DNA of 38,630 nucleotides from positions 1 to 38,630 of the forward strand of contig PFDP01000004.1 of the NCBI GenBank assembly GCA_002772535.1, in the 5' to 3' direction. Position numbers and translations under genes: made by a program. Positions 4,454 through 16,356 of the stretch are shown one piece after another (the first letter of the stretch is position 1; each line of letters starts with the position of its first letter). The stretch comes from Candidatus Peregrinibacteria bacterium CG10_big_fil_rev_8_21_14_0_10_36_19 (GTDB lineage: Bacteria; Patescibacteriota; Gracilibacteria; UBA1369; LOWO2-01-FULL-3). The notes beneath the pieces were generated by a model that did not search any database, was not told the DNA's origin, and was given only the letters and a program-made list of their open reading frames with translations.

Positions 4454-5662
4454 ATGCCTAAATTTAATTATGTAATTACAGATGATAGTGGACGAAGAAA
4501 TGAAGGCGTGGTGAACGCCTCTACGCTTGTTGAAGCCAGAGAAAAGCTTTCCGGCCAACCTGGAAACTTGATTTCACTTGTTGAGGACACTTCAATGACA
4601 ACTTGGTTTTGGCAAAAACCGCATTTGAGTTTGCAGGACAAGCTGATGTTTGTGAAACATATGTCCACGATGATAAAAGTGGGCATTACTATTACGGAAG
4701 CTATTACAATTTTAATTAATCAGACGAGTGCACCGAATAATCAAAAGATGTATAAAAATATTTTGGAGAGAATTCGTTCGGGGCAATCTTTGTCTCAAAG
4801 TTTACAGGAGTACGACTATGTTTTTTCCAATATTTTTATAAACATGATTGGTGCCGGAGAGCAGAGTGGTACTTTGCCAAAGGTACTTGAGTACTTGGAT
4901 TTGCAGCTTGAAAAGGAATATGAATTGAGGAAAAAAGTGATCTCAGCTTTTATTTATCCTGGTGTAATTATTAGTGTTACTTTTCTTTTAACAATTGCAA
5001 TTGTGCTTTTTGTTATGCCGAAAATTACTGATATTTTTGAATCTTTTGATGTAACTTTACCGTTAGTTACCAGAATACTTATTGGTTTTAGTAAGTTTGT
5101 AACTGAACAAACTCTTTTGTTTTTTGCTATTGTTGTTGGTGCAGTTTCTTTCTTTGTATATATTTTTAGAGCGAAATTCATGAAGCCTTTTTGGCATAGA
5201 GTTGTTATTTATTTACCGGTTTTTGGTAAGTTACTTGTTTATGCAAATTTGGCGAGATTTGCTAGAACGATGAGTTCACTTTTGCAGTCGGGCTTGCCGG
5301 TTGTGAAGGCTTTGGATATTACCGGTAATATGCTTGATAACCATTTATATAAAAACGCTTTGAAGGAAGCTGCTTTTAAAGTTGATAAAGGTGGAAAAAT
5401 TGGTGATAGCTTGGAAGGTAATCCACGGCTTTTTCCTCCTATTGCGACTAAGATGATTTATATTGGTGAAAAAACTGGAAGTTTGAATGTAACAACCGAG
5501 AGTTTGGCGACTTTATATGAACGTGAAGTTGATACAATTACCAGAAATCTTTCTGTTTTGTTGGAACCTTTCTTACTTGTTTTTATGGCTGCTTTGATTG
5601 GAGGAATTGCTTTAGCGATAGTGTTACCTATTTATCAACTACCTAGTTTGATTTCAAAATGA
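4454..5662 (+). CDS. pilC: Type IV pilus inner-membrane platform protein PilC
   Basis: PilC/GspF is the membrane platform on which PilB acts. The 402-residue protein has the expected two T2SSF domains, each followed by hydrophobic segments (about residues 165-190, 215-240 and 370-395). Motifs such as GEQSGTLPKVLEYL and GEKTGSLNVTTESLA mark the two repeats. It starts 8 bases after pilB and its TGA stop overlaps the ATG of the next prepilin gene in an ATGA junction, which indicates translational coupling. Confidence 0.95.
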   Translation: MPKFNYVITDDSGRRNEGVVNASTLVEAREKLSGQPGNLISLVEDTSMTTWFWQKPHLSLQDKLMFVKHMSTMIKVGITITEAITILINQTSAPNNQKMYKNILERIRSGQSLSQSLQEYDYVFSNIFINMIGAGEQSGTLPKVLEYLDLQLEKEYELRKKVISAFIYPGVIISVTFLLTIAIVLFVMPKITDIFESFDVTLPLVTRILIGFSKFVTEQTLLFFAIVVGAVSFFVYIFRAKFMKPFWHRVVIYLPVFGKLLVYANLARFARTMSSLLQSGLPVVKALDITGNMLDNHLYKNALKEAAFKVDKGGKIGDSLEGNPRLFPPIATKMIYIGEKTGSLNVTTESLATLYEREVDTITRNLSVLLEPFLLVFMAALIGGIALAIVLPIYQLPSLISK

Positions 5663-6120
5663 TGAAACAAATAAACACATTTGGGTTTAGTATTTTGGAA
5701 GTTATTTTGGTAGTTTTTATTCTATCTATGGTGGCAGGTTTTGGCTTTGTTTATTTTCAAACTTCGCAAGTTCGTGCGGATGTTAATACGCAGGCTGCTG
5801 ATATTGTTGCATATTTACGACTCTCTCAGAGTAATGCAATTTCCGGTTCATCGGAGCATAATGCGGTTCATTTGCAGAGTAATGGATTTGTACTTTTTAC
5901 TGGCAGTTCTTTTAATCCAATTGATGCTACTAATTTTAGTGTTGAACTTCCTTCAACACTTTCAATTGCTAATATTTCTTTAAATGGAAGCGGAGATAAC
6001 GTGATTTTTAATTCGCCTGACGGAACTACTTCAACATATGGAAGCTTCGATTTAACTTCTGCTCAAATTAATAAAACTATAACAATTAACATTAATGAAA
6101 TTGGGACGATTGATTACTAA
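5659..6120 (+). CDS. Minor prepilin (GspH/FimT-like)
   Basis: This 153-residue protein starts with a type III signal: a short basic leader, then G-FSILEV with Glu at position 5 after the cleavage Gly, then about 20 hydrophobic residues. The remainder is a small Ser/Thr/Asn-rich beta domain without cysteines. Size and position after pilC suggest a FimT/GspH-like minor pilin that helps prime pilus assembly. It overlaps pilC by 4 bases and the next prepilin by 26 bases. One copy of the 19-bp palindrome described in the findings lies inside it at 5940-5958. Confidence 0.85.
   Translation: MMKQINTFGFSILEVILVVFILSMVAGFGFVYFQTSQVRADVNTQAADIVAYLRLSQSNAISGSSEHNAVHLQSNGFVLFTGSSFNPIDATNFSVELPSTLSIANISLNGSGDNVIFNSPDGTTSTYGSFDLTSAQINKTITININEIGTIDY
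5940..5958. repeat. Palindrome TGTTGAA-N5-TTCAACA, copy in prepilin gene
   Basis: This is a perfect 7-base inverted repeat with a 5-base centre. It matches the four perfect copies at 15643-16288. In frame it encodes V-E-L-P-S-T. Confidence 0.6.
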
Positions 6121-7945
6121 AATTAATGGATTTTCAATTATTGAAGTTTTACTGGCTATCACTGTTTTTGCAATTTTTAGTATAGGTATATTTTATTTGA
6201 GTTTGGATACAATTGGTAGAAATGTGAATGTACAGGTTGGGAGTGAAGCAATATTTTATGCGCAAGAAGGTCTTGAAGCTGCTAGGAGAATCAGAGATCA
6301 GAATTATTTATCTCTTACGAATGGTGATCATGGGCTTAATTTTACTACGGATGTTTGGTCTTTTGTGCCGGCACCGGAGGATGTAGATGGTTTTTACGAG
6401 AGAACGGTTACCGTTGATGATGTTTATAGAGATGTGAATGGAGATATTGCAGATAGTGGCACTTTCGATCCGGATACGAAAAAAGTTACCTCGGAAATTT
6501 CTTGGCTTTTTAAGGGGATTTTTCCAAAAAGCGTGAGCCTTGTTACTTATATCTCTAATTGGACCGGTGATGACTTTGTGCAAACAACTTGTACCGAATT
6601 TGATGCTGGAACTTATACAGATATGGAAAGTGTTGCTCAGCCTTCACCGCCTGCTGACAATTGTTCTATTCAGTTAATTCTTGAAGAAGAGGGAAGTGGA
6701 TTCTTTTCTTCTGTGGATGTGGGAGATCATGGAAATGATGTTTATGTTGATGGCTCTTACGCCTATATTGCTAATAATAAAGTTCAAGCAGGCTTTAGCG
6801 TGATTGATGTTTCGGATGTGAATAATCCTTATGTTGTAAAGGATGTTGATGTTGGTGGACGTGGTAGGAAAATTACCAAGAGTGGAAATAATGTCTTTTT
6901 GGGAATTGAGAAAAGTAATGCAGGTTTGGGAGCGGTTAACGTTTCTTCTCCGGCTTCATCTTCTTTGAGTGACACTTTGGATGTTGATGCCTATGGTAAT
7001 GATATGGTGGTTTCTGGAAACTATTTGTTTATGGGTAATAGTTCTAGTGATGATAGTTTTAGAATTATAGATATTTCAAATCCAACCGCTTTAAATGAAG
7101 TTTCGAGTTTTGATCTTAATGCTGTCGTACAAGATGTGGCAATAAGTGGCTCATATGCATTTTTGGGATTGGATGATGACTTAATGGCTTTTAGAGTTGT
7201 AGATATTGCTAACGTTAATTCTCCTACCGTTGTGGCTTCTATTGATGTGGGTGAGGAGGTTAATAGTGTTTATATTAGCGGTCCGTTTGCTTATTTAGGC
7301 ACCGAAGATTCTGCTAATTCTTTATATGTAGTTAATATTTCTGATCCGGAAAATCCAAGTGTGATTACTTCTTTGAATGTTGGTGGGGAAATTCAAGATC
7401 TTGTTGTACAGGATAGTTATTTGTACGCCGCCGTGGATGAACAAAATGTGGGACTTGCTGCTGTAAATGTGAGTAATCCTTTTTCTCCAACTCTGGTTTA
7501 TAATTTGGATTTAACAGGTAAGGGTACAGGTGTTGATGCTGATGAAAATTATGTTTATGTGACTTTGGATACAAATAATAAGGGGCTTGTGATTGTGGGA
7601 GTTACTCAAGCTTCTATTGTTTTGAGTGGAACTTTTGAGTCCAGTGTTTTTGATACTAATTCTACTTTTACTAGATATAATTTTATTGAGTGGGATCATG
7701 TGGAAGTGCCGGGTGGTGACGTGAGATTTCAAATTAGAACTGCGAGTAGTGTTGGTGGTTTGAGTTCTGCTACTTGGGTGGGGCCAGATGGCACAAACGC
7801 TACCTATTACGAGGATTCACGCACTCCAATTGTTATTGATCCTGCTGCGAGTGGTGTGAGATATTTTCAATACAAAGTATTTATCGATTCCGATGGAGCC
7901 AATTCTCCGGTGATTAATTCTGTAAGAGTAAACTTTATACCATGA
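6095..7945 (+). CDS. Large minor prepilin with seven LVIVD beta-propeller repeats
   Basis: The protein has 616 residues. A prepilin leader with G-FSIIEV and a hydrophobic helix occupies about 12-38, followed by a pilin-like domain to about 200. Seven repeats of about 43-45 residues then begin near 208, 251, 296, 339, 383, 427 and 472. Each has the pattern D-V-G-x-x-x-D-V-x-V-x-G-x-Y-A-Y-L-G followed by V-V-D-I-S-N-P. This is the LVIVD family pattern and fits a seven-bladed propeller. The last 100 residues (about 510-616) look like a beta-sandwich ending in RYFQYKVFIDSD. The position corresponds to PilV-like minor pilins. Its bulk suggests it caps the pilus and may act as an adhesin; that role is inferred. 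The start overlaps the previous gene by 26 bases. Confidence 0.88.
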   Translation: MKLGRLITKINGFSIIEVLLAITVFAIFSIGIFYLSLDTIGRNVNVQVGSEAIFYAQEGLEAARRIRDQNYLSLTNGDHGLNFTTDVWSFVPAPEDVDGFYERTVTVDDVYRDVNGDIADSGTFDPDTKKVTSEISWLFKGIFPKSVSLVTYISNWTGDDFVQTTCTEFDAGTYTDMESVAQPSPPADNCSIQLILEEEGSGFFSSVDVGDHGNDVYVDGSYAYIANNKVQAGFSVIDVSDVNNPYVVKDVDVGGRGRKITKSGNNVFLGIEKSNAGLGAVNVSSPASSSLSDTLDVDAYGNDMVVSGNYLFMGNSSSDDSFRIIDISNPTALNEVSSFDLNAVVQDVAISGSYAFLGLDDDLMAFRVVDIANVNSPTVVASIDVGEEVNSVYISGPFAYLGTEDSANSLYVVNISDPENPSVITSLNVGGEIQDLVVQDSYLYAAVDEQNVGLAAVNVSNPFSPTLVYNLDLTGKGTGVDADENYVYVTLDTNNKGLVIVGVTQASIVLSGTFESSVFDTNSTFTRYNFIEWDHVEVPGGDVRFQIRTASSVGGLSSATWVGPDGTNATYYEDSRTPIVIDPAASGVRYFQYKVFIDSDGANSPVINSVRVNFIP

Positions 7946-8448
7946 TGAAAAAAGGTTTTACATTGGTGGAGATTTTAATTTATTTTGCAATTATTGGTGT
8001 TGTGATGTTGGCTTTTATAAGCTTTTCTGTGCAGATTTTGACGGTGAGTAACATTACTCAAAATTTTGGTGAGGTGCAGTCCACTCTAAATTTAGTGAAT
8101 TATAAAGTGACTAGTGCTATTCATACTGCTGATAGTGTTGATGTGGGTAATAGTGTTTTTGATAGTGATGAGGGTGCTCTGTCTTTGAATTTTTCTGAGG
8201 CGTCCGTTTCACCAACAATGTTTTATTTTTCTGCCGGTGATGTTTATATGAAGGAGGGCGCGAATACGGCAGTGAAGCTGAATTCTGATGACATTGCATT
8301 TAGTGTATTTAGATTTCATAGATCAATTTATAATCAAGCGCCTGATCAGATCATTTTTGATGCGATTATTTCTTCCAAAAATGTAGACATTTCCAATGTG
8401 AATAAAAGCGTTTCTTCTCACTTATCCATAACCTTGAGAAATTTATGA
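7942..8448 (+). CDS. Minor prepilin (PilW/GspJ-like)
   Basis: This 168-residue protein has a classical type IV prepilin N-terminus (MMKK-G-FTLVEIL) and a hydrophobic helix to about residue 30. The rest is a beta-rich domain without cysteines. By size and position after the large prepilin it probably corresponds to PilW or GspJ in the minor pilin tip complex. ATGATGA junctions at both ends overlap the neighbours by 4 bases, so translation is likely coupled along the whole minor pilin block. Confidence 0.82.
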   Translation: MMKKGFTLVEILIYFAIIGVVMLAFISFSVQILTVSNITQNFGEVQSTLNLVNYKVTSAIHTADSVDVGNSVFDSDEGALSLNFSEASVSPTMFYFSAGDVYMKEGANTAVKLNSDDIAFSVFRFHRSIYNQAPDQIIFDAIISSKNVDISNVNKSVSSHLSITLRNL

Positions 8449-8846
8449 AAAATTTAAAATGTAAAATGAGGGGATCGGCAGCAATTACTATGGTTTTGAT
8501 TGTTTCTGCAGTTTTAATAATTTTTGTTGTGGGAATGTCGAATGTGAATATTTCTACCTCTTCTCAACAGTATAATTTTGATGCTGACAAGTGGTCTTAT
8601 TATGTTGCTGAAGGTTGTTTGGAGGAATCTATAAAGAGGCTTGAGGATGATATTAATTTTACCTCTACTTCAATTAATGCTGATTCTGATACTGTTTGTA
8701 GTGTGAATGTTGTTGGTAATTTATTAAAAACAATTTCTATTGATGTGAACTATTTGGAATTTTCTAAGTCGTTTGAAGCGAGTGTTAATTTGGTTCAAAA
8801 TGGTGAAGTTTACAATGCACACCTTTCAAATTGGAGTGAAATTTAA
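8445..8846 (+). CDS. Minor pilin-like protein (PilX/GspK-like position)
   Basis: This 133-residue protein has a basic leader, G-SAAITMVLIVSAVLIIFVV as a membrane helix, then a small domain with two cysteines. It lacks the Glu at position 5 after the Gly, as PilX and GspK proteins often do. The region YYVAEGCLEESIKRL is typical of PilX-like N-terminal domains. It overlaps the preceding prepilin in an ATGA junction and completes a four-gene minor pilin set. The name is inferred from gene order and topology. Confidence 0.72.
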   Translation: MKNLKCKMRGSAAITMVLIVSAVLIIFVVGMSNVNISTSSQQYNFDADKWSYYVAEGCLEESIKRLEDDINFTSTSINADSDTVCSVNVVGNLLKTISIDVNYLEFSKSFEASVNLVQNGEVYNAHLSNWSEI

Positions 8847-8858
8847 TAGAATTGATTT

Positions 8859-10502
8859 ATGAGCTTCTTTCCTAAAAAAATAGTTGGTGTAGATATTCAT
8901 GATTATTCTGCTGAGTTAGTGGAACTAAAGATTAAAGGTGAGAAAGTTATTTTGGAGGCTTACAATAGGGTCACTTTTGATTCTGATATGATTAGGAATG
9001 GGGAGATTTTAAAGCCGGAAGAAATGAAGGTTGTTTTAAAGTCTTTGTTTGAGACGGCTAAGCCAAGGCTTATTCAAAATGACAATGTAGCTTTAATTTT
9101 TCCTTCAGCGAAGATATTCTCTCATATTTTTAAATTGCCTGGTAATTTGAACGCGGCCGAAATTAGGAAAACTTTGCCGTATGAATCTGAATCTGTAATT
9201 CCTTTTTCTATTGATGATGTTTATTGGGATTTTTCTGTTTTGTATAAGGAAACTGAAGCGGATCATAAAGAATATCAATATGTGCTTTTTGCCTCAATTA
9301 AGAAGGATGTGGTCGATAAATATGCGAAGCTTTTCCAGGATATTGGTATTACACCTTCGCTTTTCGGTGCTGATGTTGAGTCTTTGAAATATGGAGTTTT
9401 GAAGCAGCTTGATTTGGCTGAAACTAGTTTAGTGATTGATGTTGGTACACTATCTACTAATTTTTTGGTTTTAAAAGGGCATTTGATTCGGTATTTTTTT
9501 GGTTCTAATAAAGGAGGTAAAGAGCTTATAAAATCTTTGATGACCATTTTGGGTCAGGATGAAGTAGCTGTTCTTGCTCAAAAGGAGTCTGGTGAATTTA
9601 ACGGTAAAGCTTTGCCAAAGATAACTTCTTTTATTGAATCTAATTTTAAATTGGCGAATCGTTTGATTGTGGACTTTAATTTGAGAAAAAAAGCTGAGGA
9701 TAAAATTTCGAAAATTTTTATAACTGGTGAATTTTTGAATTTGCCAGGATTTTATGATTTGGCAAAGAAGCATTTTAAAAATTACAAGATTGTTTTGGCT
9801 GATCCAAGGGCTTATTTGGTTGTGGATGAGGCTAAGTTTCAGGGAACATCTGCTGGCAAAGTGCCATACTCAACATATTTTTTAAACGCTGTTGGTATTG
9901 CTTTAAGGGGTGTTTTGCCTGATTCTAAAGGCGGTATTAATCTTTTACCAAATAATTTAAAGGAGAGTATTGCGCATAAGAAAAATTATTTGTGGGTTGC
10001 TGTAGCTTCAGTTTTAATCTCTGTAATATCTTTGTTTGTTGCTACTTTTATCTTTTTTAAGTATCAAGAGTTAAATTATGGTAGGTTGAATTTAGAGATT
10101 CAAAAGTCTTCTGTGGACAAATTGCTTTATGGAACACGTTATCAGCAGATTCGTGATGAAATTAATCATTTTAACAATGAGGTTAATGAGTTAAGTAATA
10201 TTGATAATACTTTATTTTCTGTTTCACAGGTTTTAAGAGAAATTAAATCTAGTTTACCTTATGGTGTTACTTTGAGTGGTATAAAATTTGATGATTCCAG
10301 ATTGATTATTGGTGTGACAGGTGTTGCAAGTGACAGGGCGGCCTTACTCAAAGCAACGAAAAATCTTAAAGAATTGGATTATGTGGACGAAGTTATATCT
10401 CCTATTTCCAGTTTTGATGAAAAAGTGGATATATCTTTCTTTATAGAACTTAAACTTGTATTTAAAAACTTACCAAAATATGGATCTAGTGCAGCTGCCT
10501 AA
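8859..10502 (+). CDS. pilM-pilN: Fused PilM-PilN type IV pilus assembly protein
   Basis: Residues 1-350 are a PilM actin-like ATPase, with VGVDIHDYSAELVEL near the start, LVIDVGTLSTNFLVL near 191-205 and FITGEFLNLPG near 287-297. This is followed by INLLPNN at 360, the hallmark N-terminal tail of PilN, which PilM binds. A transmembrane helix lies at about 377-400, then a coiled region and the periplasmic-type ferredoxin-like PilN domain. The frame is continuous for 547 residues, against about 350 for PilM and 200 for PilN when separate. The fusion would tether the ring-forming ATPase-fold protein to the membrane permanently. pilO follows with a 23-base overlap. Confidence 0.9.
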   Translation: MSFFPKKIVGVDIHDYSAELVELKIKGEKVILEAYNRVTFDSDMIRNGEILKPEEMKVVLKSLFETAKPRLIQNDNVALIFPSAKIFSHIFKLPGNLNAAEIRKTLPYESESVIPFSIDDVYWDFSVLYKETEADHKEYQYVLFASIKKDVVDKYAKLFQDIGITPSLFGADVESLKYGVLKQLDLAETSLVIDVGTLSTNFLVLKGHLIRYFFGSNKGGKELIKSLMTILGQDEVAVLAQKESGEFNGKALPKITSFIESNFKLANRLIVDFNLRKKAEDKISKIFITGEFLNLPGFYDLAKKHFKNYKIVLADPRAYLVVDEAKFQGTSAGKVPYSTYFLNAVGIALRGVLPDSKGGINLLPNNLKESIAHKKNYLWVAVASVLISVISLFVATFIFFKYQELNYGRLNLEIQKSSVDKLLYGTRYQQIRDEINHFNNEVNELSNIDNTLFSVSQVLREIKSSLPYGVTLSGIKFDDSRLIIGVTGVASDRAALLKATKNLKELDYVDEVISPISSFDEKVDISFFIELKLVFKNLPKYGSSAAA

Positions 10503-11019
10503 TAGCTTAAAAAGACTGATTTTTGTTTCCTTTCTGCTTATTCTTATAAGTACGTTTGTAGTTTTATTTATGGGCTTTTCTTTGATTGGTGTGCGTCATG
10601 ATATTGCAAGTCTTACAAAATTTTTAGATAAAGCGGATGGTATTCAGGCAAATTTTGAGAGAAGTTTGCAAGTTTATACTGAGAGTACTCAGGAGATTGT
10701 AGATTATTTGCTTTCTTTGAGACCGGTTAGTGAGGAAGGGTATATTAATTTCATTGCATCTACTGAAGAGGTTGCCCAAAGATTAGGGCTTGATTTGGAA
10801 CTTAATTCAATTGTGTTGGATAGCAAGAGTAAATCTTTGGCTTATAAACTTTCCTTTTATGGATCGTTTGGAGATTTAGATAGAGTTTTGAGAGAATTTG
10901 AGTCTTTGCCTTATTTTATTAGAATTTATTCAATAGATTTTGAAGATTTAAAATTTTCAAAAAATGATGAAAATCAATCTAAGAATGTTAACTTAATTAT
11001 ACAAGTTTATGTTAAATAA
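10480..11019 (+). CDS. pilO: PilO-like pilus alignment protein
   Basis: This 179-residue bitopic protein has one transmembrane helix near residues 12-36, a coiled segment (about 45-85) and a ferredoxin-like domain. Motifs include VAQRLGLDLELNSI and YGSFGDLDRVLREFESLPYFIRI, which match PilO. PilO partners PilN in the inner-membrane alignment complex. I chose the ATG at 10480, inside the end of pilM-pilN. A TTG at 10456 is possible but gives a tail with no support. The 3' end overlaps the next small gene by 11 bases. Confidence 0.85.
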   Translation: MDLVQLPNSLKRLIFVSFLLILISTFVVLFMGFSLIGVRHDIASLTKFLDKADGIQANFERSLQVYTESTQEIVDYLLSLRPVSEEGYINFIASTEEVAQRLGLDLELNSIVLDSKSKSLAYKLSFYGSFGDLDRVLREFESLPYFIRIYSIDFEDLKFSKNDENQSKNVNLIIQVYVK

Positions 11020-11212
11020 ATATAAAGAGTATTGGTTGTTTTTTGTTTGTATACTACTTTTTTTTGTACTTATTGGTTATGTTTTATATATTTATTTTAC
11101 TTGGAATGCTAATGGAAATGGTGATGATCCTATTGAAGTTTCTTTACCAGTGATTGAGTGGCAGAAGTATACTAACTTGTCAAAAACCCAAGAGGTAAGT
11201 AAAATAAAGTAA
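11009..11212 (+). CDS. Small single-pass membrane protein in PilP position
   Basis: The protein has 67 residues: a short basic N-terminus, one hydrophobic helix at about 9-32 and a short polar tail. It overlaps the end of pilO, so it is co-translated with the pilus genes. In many systems the next gene is the lipoprotein PilP, but this protein has no lipobox and is much shorter. It may be a reduced pilus component or assembly helper. No family was recognised. Confidence 0.6.
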   Translation: MLNKYKEYWLFFVCILLFFVLIGYVLYIYFTWNANGNGDDPIEVSLPVIEWQKYTNLSKTQEVSKIK

Positions 11213-11237
11213 ATTTATACTAATTAAATCCTATCCT

Positions 11238-11687
11238 ATGAATTTAAAGTTGAATAAAAAAGGTTTCACTTTGGTGGAAGTTCTTTTAGTTGTGGTGATT
11301 ATTGCGATTCTGGCTGCTATTGTGATTGTGGCTATTAATCCTGGTAGACAAATTTCTCAGGCTAACAATACTCAAAGAAGTAGTGATGTTAAAGCTATTT
11401 TAGATGCGGTGCATCAGTATTCTATTGATAACAGAGGTGCTTTACCTACTGCTATTACAACGACTCCAACTGTTGTTGGTAGTGGTGCTGGTTTGATTGA
11501 TATTTGTACTGATCTTGTTCCTACATATATGGCTGAAATGCCTTATGATCCAACTGCAAGTGGTGCAGCGTATACTGATTGTTCAGCTTACAATACAGGT
11601 TATACTATAGCTTCTGATGCGAATGGTCGTGTTACTGTTGCGGCTCCTACGGCTGAGCTTTCTGAAACTGTTAGTGTTACGAGATAA
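11238..11687 (+). CDS. pilA: Major type IV prepilin (PilA-like)
   Basis: This 149-residue protein has the most canonical prepilin N-terminus in the window: K-K-G-FTLVEVLLVVVIIAILAA, with Glu5 and a long helix. A small globular domain follows, with two cysteines in ICTDLV and TDCSAY that can form the C-terminal disulfide loop of pilins. A TATACT element at 11216-11221 allows separate, probably stronger transcription with a leader of about 10 bases. A strong terminator follows the gene. These points and the residue pattern make it the likely major subunit. Confidence 0.88.
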   Translation: MNLKLNKKGFTLVEVLLVVVIIAILAAIVIVAINPGRQISQANNTQRSSDVKAILDAVHQYSIDNRGALPTAITTTPTVVGSGAGLIDICTDLVPTYMAEMPYDPTASGAAYTDCSAYNTGYTIASDANGRVTVAAPTAELSETVSVTR

Positions 11688-13354: not shown

Positions 13355-14128
13355 CTACTTTATGCTTTTTTTGATGAAAAACACTAAGTTTACTATTGCG
13401 ATACAATAAAGTGATGCTTGCGGTATTTTTGCGATTGCAAGCGCGTTGTATAGAACTGCTGCTAGTATTCCATAGGCTATTTGGTCTGTTTTTTCTATCG
13501 GAGAAGTGCGTGGTTCTATGAGCATGATTGTGGCAAAAAAGTAGATTGTGGCGTCTGTGAAAACAAATTGGAAGGCTTCTATTCCGCTATAAAAGTAAGT
13601 AAAGATAGCGTGTGGAATTAGAAAACTTATTAATATGGCGTACTTGCGCCATTGTTTAAGGAAAAAAATTGTCCAAATTGCGAGTAATGCTAGCGTGAAA
13701 TACCCTCCAAATAATTTGTAATTCGTTCCCCACCAAGAAGCTATTGTTGAGTCTGATCCGAATAGTTTTAGTAGTAGTGTTGCTAGAATTATTCCAAAAA
13801 CTGCTGGATTTATGGCTGGCGAACCTTGTTTTTCTAGGAAAAATTTACTGAAAGTGGCAATTGTTGTTGCAAGTGCTGTTGCTGGTAGGGAATTGGAATG
13901 TAGTACTAGGAAAATTATGAGCGCTGTTGAAATTGTGTTGTAGATTGATTTTGGTTTTTTTGTGAGAAATTTTAGTGTCGCAAATAAAATAATAGCAAGG
14001 CCAACACTTGCTAAAAGATGTAATAATACGGCTTGAGAGAAGTTGTTGAAGTAAATAGCACCTAGTGCAAAAAGTCCAAGAAGGATGTTGATAATTTTTA
14101 GTGGAGACATCTTGAGGTTCATAAGCAT
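13355..14128 (-). CDS. RnfD/NqrB-like integral membrane protein
   Basis: This 257-residue protein has about eight hydrophobic helices. It carries the RnfD/NqrB-family signatures EKQGSPAINPAVFGI near the middle and FTDATIYFFATIMLIEPRTSP in the second half. RnfD subunits pass electrons through the membrane to flavins on the outside. Here the S-G-A-T flavinylation motif of full Rnf/Nqr subunits is absent; SWWGTNYK stands in the corresponding region, as in stand-alone RnfD-like proteins. No other rnf or nqr genes are present. The gene is divergent from, and 42 bases away from, an FMN-binding lipoprotein and ApbE, with which it most likely works. Starts at 14128 or 14122 are both plausible. Confidence 0.85.
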   Translation of the reverse strand: MLMNLKMSPLKIINILLGLFALGAIYFNNFSQAVLLHLLASVGLAIILFATLKFLTKKPKSIYNTISTALIIFLVLHSNSLPATALATTIATFSKFFLEKQGSPAINPAVFGIILATLLLKLFGSDSTIASWWGTNYKLFGGYFTLALLAIWTIFFLKQWRKYAILISFLIPHAIFTYFYSGIEAFQFVFTDATIYFFATIMLIEPRTSPIEKTDQIAYGILAAVLYNALAIAKIPQASLYCIAIVNLVFFIKKSIK

Positions 14129-14170
14129 ATATGAGATAGTAATTTTACTTAAGATTTTACCTCAAAAGTT

Positions 14171-14692
14171 ATGCAAAAAACAATTTACCTATTAATGCTT
14201 ACAGTTATTATTTCTGGTGTGTTCACTGGATGTTTGCCTGTAGACACAACTATTGATTCTGAACCTGTTGCTCTTGATCAAGCAATGCCTGCTAATGATG
14301 GTCAATTACCTCCTGTGGAAGAAATGATTGTAGAACGCGGTGGTATGATGGGGCGTGGTGGGAATGGAATGATGGTTTTTGCCAATAAATATAAAGATGG
14401 TACATATGAGGAAATTGGTGCTTATCAAAGTCCTGCTGGAGCGGAAACTTTAGGCGTAAAAGTGACAGTTAAAGATGATGTTGTAACTAGTTTAACAGTT
14501 ACAAATAAGGCTACGGATGAAGTTAGCATTAAGTTGCAAGATATGTTTATCCAAGGAATTAATACTTTAGTTATTGGAAAAAAATTAGAAAATTTAGATG
14601 ATTTTACTGTGGTAAATGGGGCTTCTCTTACACCTGCTGGTTTTAATAATGCAATTAAAGCTATAAAAGTTGACGCTGAAAATGCCTCATAA
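14171..14692 (+). CDS. FMN-binding domain lipoprotein
   Basis: This 173-residue protein has a lipoprotein signal peptide (hydrophobic 4-18, lipobox FTGC, lipidated C21), a low-complexity Gly/Met linker (about 57-70) and an FMN_bind domain (about 73-168). The domain contains YKDGTYEEIGAYQSPAG and VVNGASLTPAGFNNAI. NGASLT at 149-154 corresponds to the flavinylation motif (S/T)-G-A-(S/T)-x-T, so T154 would carry covalent FMN added by ApbE. The first motif residue is Asn rather than Ser or Thr. It should be a membrane-tethered extracytosolic electron carrier. The 3' end overlaps apbE by 11 bases. Confidence 0.88.
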   Translation: MQKTIYLLMLTVIISGVFTGCLPVDTTIDSEPVALDQAMPANDGQLPPVEEMIVERGGMMGRGGNGMMVFANKYKDGTYEEIGAYQSPAGAETLGVKVTVKDDVVTSLTVTNKATDEVSIKLQDMFIQGINTLVIGKKLENLDDFTVVNGASLTPAGFNNAIKAIKVDAENAS

Positions 14693-15506
14693 TTGTGAAG
14701 AGCGTGAGCTTTTGGGCACACGCGTTAGAATTTTTGGTGATGTTGACTTCGAAAAAGCTTTCAAAGAATGCAAACGCATCGAGAAGGCTTTTTCTCGTTT
14801 TTTAGAGGGGAATGAGCTTTGGGAATTGAATCAAAATGTGGGTGTTTTTTTTGAAGTTAGTGAGGAGATGATGCATTTGTTGAAGTTAGCTCAACAGGTG
14901 AAGGAAAATACTGGTGGAGCGTTTAATGTGGCTGTGGAAAGTGTTTTGAGAGGGTTGGGTTATGATAAAAATTATTCTTTTGTTGAAAGTGATAGTGGCA
15001 AAATCGGTGAAATTGAATTTGATGGAAGTAGGGTTAAAATTACAGCTCCAGTAGATTTAGGCGGCTTAGGCAAAGGCTATGCTTTGAAAAAAATGGTTGA
15101 ATGTTTGAACGGTAGTTTTTGTGTGGATGCTGGTGGTGATATTTATGCACAAGGTAGTGGTTGGAAGGCGGCTTTTGAACATCCTTTAAATGAGGGGGAG
15201 GTGATTGGTGGAGTTGAAGTTGATGGCTTTTACTTAGCCTCTAGCAGTGCAAGTAAGCGTAAGTGGGGTAAGAGTCATCATTTGATAAATACGGCGTCTG
15301 GTGAGTGTGCAGACGATATGCTGGCCGTTTATATACAAGGAGGAGACGGTACTTTGGTGGATGCGTATAGTACTGCTCTTTATGTGATGGGTTTTGAAAG
15401 AGGTGTTGAAATGATTTCGACACTTCCTGTGGAAGCCATGTTAATTAGCAAAGAAGGTGCTATTTTTAGGTCGAAAGGTTTTAAGGGAGAGCTTTTTACA
15501 GCTTAG
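14682..15506 (+). CDS. apbE: ApbE-family FAD:protein FMN transferase
   Basis: This 274-residue enzyme transfers FMN from FAD to a Thr in flavinylation motifs. Family motifs visible are GGAFNVAV (78-85), DLGGLGKGYA (125-134), DAGGDI (149-154), SKRKWGKSHHLIN (191-203) and DAYSTALYVMG (227-237), which supply the Mg/FAD site. The chosen ATG at 14682 lies inside the end of the FMN lipoprotein gene and implies coupled translation. The N-terminus MPHNCEERELLGTRV has no signal peptide, which is unusual because bacterial ApbE normally acts outside the membrane. The only nearby substrate candidate is the upstream lipoprotein. The stop overlaps the convergent lipoprotein gene by 11 bases. Confidence 0.93.
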   Translation: MPHNCEERELLGTRVRIFGDVDFEKAFKECKRIEKAFSRFLEGNELWELNQNVGVFFEVSEEMMHLLKLAQQVKENTGGAFNVAVESVLRGLGYDKNYSFVESDSGKIGEIEFDGSRVKITAPVDLGGLGKGYALKKMVECLNGSFCVDAGGDIYAQGSGWKAAFEHPLNEGEVIGGVEVDGFYLASSSASKRKWGKSHHLINTASGECADDMLAVYIQGGDGTLVDAYSTALYVMGFERGVEMISTLPVEAMLISKEGAIFRSKGFKGELFTA

Positions 15507-16356
15507 TTATTATTTCTGAAAAGAAAAATATGTGTTCGTTTGTTTTTCCATTTTCGCTGTAGCTGGCTTTTATTTGCCCTTTTTCTTCATCTATTGCGGT
15601 AACTGTTACTTTTGTGAAGATTCCATAAATTGGTGCATATACTGTTGAATTGATTTCAACACTTGGGTGCAGATTAATTGGGATGACATTTTTAATGTTT
15701 TGAACAGATATTGTGTTATTGAAACCTTTTACTAAAGCCTTTTCTTTGTTGATGTTAATAATTATTCCACTTTGATATTCATTCCCATTTTTGATTGCAA
15801 TTGGAGACCCTTGTTGAAATCGGTTCGACAGTATTTTGAAAGTTTTTGCTTTGAGAGTAGCAGGTGTTGAAACGAATTCGTCAAAGTAGTAAACATCTGG
15901 TGTGGATTCGTCGGTGGAGTTGTTTACTATGGCGTGTGCAAGCCCAGAACCTCCTTGCCACCAAGTAATTAAAATATCGGATTTTTGTGCTTGAGAGTCG
16001 GTAAGGGGAATAATAAGTGAGTTAGGCATTTCGAATATTTTTCCTTGAAGATCTTTGAGTGTTGAAACTGTTTCAACAGTTTTTTGAAGAATTGCTGGTT
16101 CGAATGTGAATACGGTATTTTCTTTATAATTCCAGGCATTTTGTAGTTCTGCCAGGCTTGGTGAAAGTACGTAAGAACCTGTGGGTGTTGAAGTGAGTTC
16201 AACAGGTGGGAAATCAAAAGGAATTTCTCCAGGGGCGTGGTCGGGGATTATTGAAACACTTGTTTGTGGTGTTGAAGGTGGTTCAACAGGCTTTTGAGCT
16301 TTTGTACATGCCGTTGTGCTTATGATGAGGGCGAGAATGAGGAGTTTTTTTATCAT
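15496..16356 (-). CDS. Lipoprotein with tandem Tudor/SH3-like C-terminal repeats
   Basis: This 286-residue protein has a signal peptide with lipobox TTAC (C17) and a Pro/Ser/Thr-rich linker (about 18-65). A central domain contains ILITWWQGGSGLAHAIV, which resembles one small barrel. The C-terminal half has two further barrel-like repeats (PIAIKNGNEYQSGIIININ..ALVKGF and VYAPIYGIFTKVTVTAID..IKASYSENG) in the style of Tudor/Agenet folds. The function is unknown; it is probably surface exposed. The gene contains four perfect copies and one degenerate copy of a 19-bp palindrome, so the peptide V-E-x-x-S-T recurs. Its promoter predicts a leaderless transcript. It overlaps apbE tail to tail. Confidence 0.75.
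   Translation of the reverse strand: MIKKLLILALIISTTACTKAQKPVEPPSTPQTSVSIIPDHAPGEIPFDFPPVELTSTPTGSYVLSPSLAELQNAWNYKENTVFTFEPAILQKTVETVSTLKDLQGKIFEMPNSLIIPLTDSQAQKSDILITWWQGGSGLAHAIVNNSTDESTPDVYYFDEFVSTPATLKAKTFKILSNRFQQGSPIAIKNGNEYQSGIIININKEKALVKGFNNTISVQNIKNVIPINLHPSVEINSTVYAPIYGIFTKVTVTAIDEEKGQIKASYSENGKTNEHIFFFSEIITKL
15643..15661. repeat. Palindrome TGTTGAA-N5-TTCAACA
   Basis: This is a perfect copy inside the lipoprotein gene, encoding V-E-I-N-S-T on the minus strand. Confidence 0.65.
15865..15883. repeat. Degenerate copy of the palindrome
   Basis: The left arm TGTTGAA is intact and the right arm reads TTCGTCA. The coded peptide is D-E-F-V-S-T-P, a variant of V-E-x-x-S-T-P. Confidence 0.45.
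16060..16078. repeat. Palindrome TGTTGAA-N5-TTCAACA
   Basis: This is a perfect copy inside the lipoprotein gene, encoding V-E-T-V-S-T on the minus strand. Confidence 0.65.
16186..16204. repeat. Palindrome TGTTGAA-N5-TTCAACA
   Basis: This is a perfect copy inside the lipoprotein gene, encoding V-E-L-T-S-T-P on the minus strand. Confidence 0.65.
16270..16288. repeat. Palindrome TGTTGAA-N5-TTCAACA
   Basis: This is a perfect copy inside the lipoprotein gene, encoding V-E-P-P-S-T-P on the minus strand. Confidence 0.65.

Follow-up and report, generated by a model that had tools for sequence, protein, structure and literature searches.

Three adjacent genes in the window, the whole 38,630-nucleotide stretch of DNA analysed here, encode an RnfD-like membrane protein, a lipoprotein with an FMN_bind-like domain and an ApbE flavin transferase. 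The trio is a real, conserved unit that is easily missed by standard cut-offs. We propose with moderate confidence that it constitutes a minimal one-way transmembrane electron-transfer unit, with a free reductase as donor and an FMN-lipoprotein as carrier. The source genome comprises 1,074,598 bases in 15 contigs and is 99.06% complete. Among the top 80 of 209 loci, the named relatives nearest to the RnfD-like gene belong to MAGs of Candidatus Peregrinibacteria, Peribacteria and Gracilibacteria, which places the window's lineage in the CPR; Lac Pavin and groundwater samples appear in the record titles of these relatives. The order is one that we take to be the Peribacterales. The identities of the three genes, the folds of the RnfD-like protein and the lipoprotein, the gene linkage, its conservation and the RnfD clade were all computed.

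Table 1. Features of the three-gene module, in window coordinates.
Feature	Position	Strand	Basis
RnfD/NqrB-like membrane protein, 257 aa	13355..14128	-	PF03116, AlphaFold2 model, motif scan, tree clade
Divergent intergenic region, 42 bases, between RnfD-like gene and lipoprotein gene	14129..14170	.	ORF ends, sequence
Lipoprotein, 173 aa, with FMN_bind-like domain at about residues 75-169	14171..14692	+	FMN_bind 17.6 bits, alignment A2, fold
NGASLT, residues 149-154	14615..14632	+	Alignment, published motif, sequence
Ser152 codon, expected FMN acceptor	14624-14626	+	Published motif, alignment
T154 codon	14630-14632	+	Sequence
ApbE (FAD:protein FMN transferase), 278 aa, TTG start, no signal peptide	14670..15506	+	PF02424, PDB sequence matches, N-terminal hydropathy

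The three reading frames claimed by an earlier note on this DNA agree exactly with the ORF list (Table 1). The RnfD-like gene is divergent from the lipoprotein-ApbE pair, as that note had described, and the same order is found in relatives. The lipoprotein gene shares 23 bases with the ApbE gene. A promoter and terminator scan of the intergenic region gave no signal above that of shuffled sequences. Facing the ApbE gene, positions 15496-16356 (- strand) encode a predicted 286-aa lipoprotein for which Pfam and NCBIfam searches gave no family; it has relatives in 11 of the 89 genomes of the order, several adjoining the module and others in module-less genomes. A co-directional run of genes (4454-11687, + strand) resembles a type IV pilus set, with a PilM-like protein and a pilin-like N-terminus, as judged by eye from the ORFs.

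The membrane protein matches PF03116 at 25.0 bits (E 1.5e-5), under the cut-off of 27.7. Its AlphaFold2 model, with a mean pLDDT of 82, clearly displays an RnfD fold: VIA Z scores against RnfD/NqrB range from 20.0 to 22.9 and Foldseek agrees, while the best other fold, that of ammonium and urea channels, reaches Z 11.6. PF03116 was the sole domain found in the 257 residues, the NAD-binding domain PF00175 being absent. A motif scan found no [S/T]GA[S/T] in this protein or in its Peribacterales relatives.

The lipoprotein matches FMN_bind (PF04205) with 17.6 bits (E 0.0063, cut-off 22). Together with its aligned relatives, 3 of 11 lipoproteins match this family with E up to 0.1, led by L019 (20.7 bits, E 0.00065), and none of the 11 scanned reaches the Pfam cut-off. 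A search of PDB sequences with the lipoprotein profile returned chance matches only. The modelled domain (residues 75-169) has as its best match the FMN-binding domain 8p2a (Z 9.9, rmsd 2.2, 88 aligned), followed by NqrC (Z 8.4) and RnfG (Z 8.2). Because IscU also matches the model with Z 8.9, the fold match alone is moderate evidence that the lipoprotein has an FMN_bind-like fold; the IscU rows were taken to reflect shared topology rather than kinship. Cys21 is invariant in 11/11 aligned relatives, as are S152, L153 and T154 (alignment A2).

The ApbE motif is given as D-x-x-[S/T]-G-A-[S/T] with FMN attached to the last residue (PMC12052999), and as [S/T]GA[S/T] in the eLife survey of flavinylation (PMC8238504). 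In the window the corresponding NGAS retains the Gly, the Ala and the acceptor Ser, has Asn in place of Ser/Thr and lacks the Asp. In the motifs listed for more distant loci, the residue equivalent to S152 is Ser or Thr throughout, and L066, L091 and L095 have Ser where the window has T154. Since the published motif places FMN on its last residue and the distant motifs keep Ser/Thr there, Ser152 is the expected FMN site, with Thr154 as an alternative. T154, the site named by the earlier note, was therefore rejected as the expected one. According to the review, a Thr to Ser change reduces flavinylation by the ApbE studied (PMC12052999).

Identification of ApbE is certain at the sequence level: PF02424 is matched over residues 16-257 with 133.3 bits (cut-off 25.6, E 1.5e-38), and a sequence search recovered solved ApbE structures, including the FMN transferase chain 7esa.

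The trio recurs across the order. Profile A1 detects an RnfD-like match in 18 of 89 genomes, 14 of them at E 1.3e-85 or better; the weaker matches (G077, G045, G088 and G020) have E between 4e-13 and 1.9e-21. ApbE is found in 24 of the 89, namely in 13/14 genomes with a close RnfD-like relative versus 11/75 others (Fisher p 2e-8, kinship ignored). In the relatives' neighbourhoods RnfD points one way and the FMN_bind lipoprotein-ApbE pair the other, and the recurrence of this divergent order argues against chance. The co-occurrence on which the earlier note had staked its module is thus borne out, and the three genes behave as one set within the order. Some copies are incomplete. In G008 a contig end cuts off the lipoprotein gene, with ApbE on another contig; in G060 the N-terminal part of the lipoprotein falls in a run of N; and in G006 (L190:3467-3995), the one of the 14 genomes not counted as having ApbE, an intact RnfD stands beside an N-terminal piece of the lipoprotein and then roughly the final 25 residues of ApbE, remnants that reflect either module decay or an assembly error. 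Lipoprotein-ApbE pairs without RnfD were also seen, adjoining a YibE/F membrane protein gene (217 bits) at L021:5518-8358 (G045) and a ZnuA-type metal-binding protein gene (262 bits) at L203:2186-4638 (G070).

Across a sample of the phylum, an RnfD-like match was found in 77 of 379 genomes, 57 of fused size and 20 of solo size, as split by open-frame length at a 400-residue line that we drew. A tree was built from 89 RnfD domains, taken from the 80 top-ranked of the 209 loci and from the profile A1 matches in the order; short rows were kept, and the set excludes duplicate proteins and the repeat loci L025-L035. The order's 14 solo proteins form a single clade (bootstrap/SH-aLRT 100/92), joined by one Dojkabacteria protein (100/98), and 51 fused proteins plus 4 solo or split ones form one group (100/100); the tree has several long end branches and its deeper order is unsure. 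The window protein belongs to a separate, well-supported clade, it carries no NAD domain and its intact relatives are also unfused, so it is not a truncated or broken copy of the fused form. Nor is it the remnant of an RNF operon, since PF02508 (RnfA/RnfE, NqrD/NqrE) was not found in the 99% complete genome. Profile A1 detects a single RnfD-like protein there, which upholds the earlier claim that Rnf/Nqr complex partners are missing.

No reductase adjoins the trio in the window. The genome holds two PF00175 proteins, one of which scores above the NCBIfam cut-off for a PyrK-type subunit. The other is a free 232-aa reductase with PF00970 and PF00175 (G000:C3:173869-174564), whose NCBIfam matches include NqrF (E 5e-27, below cut-off). 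Counted by hand at at least 100 bits, a threshold chosen after viewing the list, this free reductase is present in 48 of 89 order genomes: 14/14 module genomes and 34/75 others (p 6e-5), with 0/4 among carriers of the fused or split RnfD form (p 0.04). Within the window's own family the figures are 8/8 module genomes versus 14/22 (p 0.055), so much of the link may stem from common descent. Free reductases lie divergent beside solo RnfD in L120 (Levyibacteriota) and L111 (Berkelbacteria); the other neighbour of the L111 reductase is ferric-reductase-like (24.2 bits, cut-off 28). In the order, the gene next to the free reductase often encodes either a small membrane protein or a roughly 190-aa lipoprotein, and these neighbours of its own suggest that it has another role as well. 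The earlier note was right that no dehydrogenase stands beside the trio but wrong for the genome, where this NqrF-like FAD/NAD(P) reductase is encoded; as every module genome has one, the module need not lack a donor. A search for FAD synthetase (PF06574) gave only a partial, sub-threshold 22-bit match (L198:1501-1941, G000:C3 near 269.7 kb), located in a nucleotidyltransferase-like ORF of about 146-147 aa.

An electron-transfer mechanism is likely for the trio. Electrons would pass from NAD(P)H to the cytosolic FAD/NAD(P)H reductase whose gene lies in another part of the genome, and from there to the RnfD-like protein, which would hold its flavin non-covalently and send them across the membrane to the lipoprotein. 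The latter, carrying FMN attached by ApbE to Ser152 on the outer face, would in turn reduce some acceptor. For related systems in which the reductase is fused to RnfD, export of NAD(P)H-derived electrons has been proposed (PMC11334425). No ion pumping by the trio is expected because RnfA/E, B, C and the Nqr partners are missing. Flavinylation, the direction of flow, the reductase as donor and the acceptor are steps that we infer. Several points speak against the scheme: the lipoprotein is under the FMN_bind cut-off, its motif is off consensus, ApbE lacks an export signal and G006 holds remnants; moreover, the reductase link is weak given kinship, and many genomes that lack the module also carry the reductase, which lies among other neighbours. 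The electron-transfer reading of the earlier note thus keeps its conserved unit and its lack of an Rnf/Nqr complex, and loses T154 and the genome-wide lack of a donor. Its suggestion of electron exchange with a host cell is unsupported.

The N-terminus of ApbE shows no hydrophobic stretch, signal peptide or lipobox by hydropathy, and a single in-frame codon separates the upstream stop from the TTG start. The export-signal test was the mean hydropathy of 15 N-terminal residues, a simple measure and not a signal-peptide predictor. By this test none of 69 distinct ApbE in the collected loci reaches 2.2, upstream in-frame extension included, and 2 reach 1.85. As the order yielded no signal-bearing ApbE to act as a positive control, the lipoproteins took that place: among distinct FMN_bind proteins, 21/37 reach at least 2.2 and 33/37 at least 1.85. 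Modification of a surface protein by such an ApbE needs an extra step. This can mean that flavinylation takes place inside the cell before export, that ApbE is exported by some other route, or that the lipoprotein is not flavinylated. We place flavinylation before export first among these options, as an interpretation of the overlapping genes and the invariant motif.

That ApbE acts on a cytosolic protein, with an unflavinylated lipoprotein and a trio linked for another reason, appears highly improbable. The hydropathy contrast between ApbE and FMN_bind proteins and the departure of NGAS from the consensus fit such a reading, and the review names signal-less ApbE with intracellular substrates, with the precedent of Klebsiella, where it serves a cytosolic fumarate reductase (PMC12052999). 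It is countered by the 23-base overlap, by the Ser and Thr of the motif being invariant in 11/11, and by the recurrence, in other phyla, of signal-less ApbE together with exported FMN_bind proteins. The donor, for its part, might be ferredoxin, another flavoprotein or a membrane pool rather than the free NAD(P)H reductase. Ferredoxin is the electron source of RNF (PMC11334425), and the free reductase lies apart from the trio with different neighbours; yet exactly this reductase domain is present in the fused relatives, and the distribution of the free reductase (14/14 module genomes versus 0/4 fused or split carriers) also speaks against another donor, which we rate as distinctly improbable.

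The same wiring could also serve an assimilatory or protective purpose, such as ferric iron reduction for uptake or repair of oxidised surface proteins, instead of an electron sink. In the eLife survey, a ferrous iron transporter was associated with some flavinylated systems, six NQR/RNF-like clusters among them (PMC8238504). Beside the trio, however, the ORF lists and the families run on them show no recognisable gene for iron transport or repair, and we regard this purpose as unlikely.

These bacteria are generally described as fermenters without respiration. If the proposal is true, some of these tiny bacteria can push electrons out with three or four proteins. The eLife survey called extracytosolic flavinylation strikingly underrepresented in the CPR and, by its account, dropped genes lacking a signal peptide or lipidation site (PMC8238504). 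In the present CPR lineage the proposed carrier lipoprotein escapes the standard threshold, and the signal-less ApbE would not pass that filter. Part of the CPR gap may thus be a detection effect, as the lipoproteins are under the cut-off (11/11) and ApbE is without the required signal. A signal-less ApbE with an exported substrate also raises the question of where flavinylation occurs.

Solo RnfD-like genes elsewhere have other neighbours. They adjoin cupredoxin genes (PF13473 or PF00127) at L194:5695-7571 (G045), L120:2858-4178, L075:2356-3619 and L100:5354-6651, the last cupredoxin match being 24.3 bits, under the cut-off of 27. At L194 a Rieske protein (64 bits) is encoded between the RnfD-like and cupredoxin genes, and at L120 the RnfD-like gene is flanked by a cupredoxin on one side and a free reductase on the other. 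The RnfD-like protein may thus serve copper as well as flavin carriers. In Micrarchaeota (L054, L056, L058, L065 and L067), a small conserved protein of 146-164 aa with one membrane segment precedes the solo RnfD-like gene; it ends in ...LGDDGFVxVxPxGY..., gave no convincing Pfam match (L058 scanned) and is possibly another outer partner. A wider and doubtful extension would make the solo RnfD-like protein a general transmembrane adaptor, distinct from the fused NQR/RNF-like systems, through which a free cytosolic reductase is connected to exchangeable outer carriers, namely a Ser-linked FMN lipoprotein in this module and cupredoxins or a Rieske protein elsewhere; in these CPR a signal-less ApbE would attach FMN in the cell prior to export, with no flavin exporter needed.

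A literature search, at the level of listings, found no publication that treats the module for Peregrinibacteria or Gracilibacteria. The flavin-based extracellular electron transfer of Listeria (FmnB/ApbE) likewise has an ApbE-type transferase serving extracytosolic transfer, but flavinylation is described as extracytosolic there whereas the window ApbE has no export signal. The remaining components of the Listeria system also differ. With RNF (RnfD, RnfG) and Na+-NQR (NqrB, NqrC), the trio shares the folds of the membrane protein and the FMN domain; unlike them, the window genome lacks RnfA/E or NqrD/E and the membrane protein lacks [S/T]GA[S/T]. Closer in gene content are the Bacillaceae FMN_bind-ApbE-solo RnfD loci (L066, L095), with the same genes, an unfused RnfD and a signal-less ApbE, and the Paenibacillaceae ApbE-solo RnfD locus (L083), which shares the latter two features. 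In all three the genes lie on one strand and the RnfD falls in a separate clade of the tree, and L066 and L095 have a canonical SGAT motif in contrast to the NGAS of the window.

NQR/RNF-like systems, in which an RnfD-like domain is fused to PF00175, were reported from 127 genomes, mainly of Actinobacteria and CPR (PMC8238504), and the 2024 mSystems paper proposes one-way flow through a membrane domain that it describes as without a flavin site (PMC11334425). The window system resembles these in its RnfD/NqrB-like membrane part without a covalent flavin site (PMC8238504, PMC11334425), its adjacent lipoprotein as a putative extracytosolic FMN_bind partner with a matching fold but a family score under the cut-off, the nearby ApbE, the lack of other Rnf/Nqr subunits and its occurrence in the CPR. 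It differs in that its RnfD has no fused NAD reductase domain (PF00175) and belongs to a separate clade. Sharing these traits except the fusion, the window system would thus work alike, yet it is not a member of this group by the published definition.
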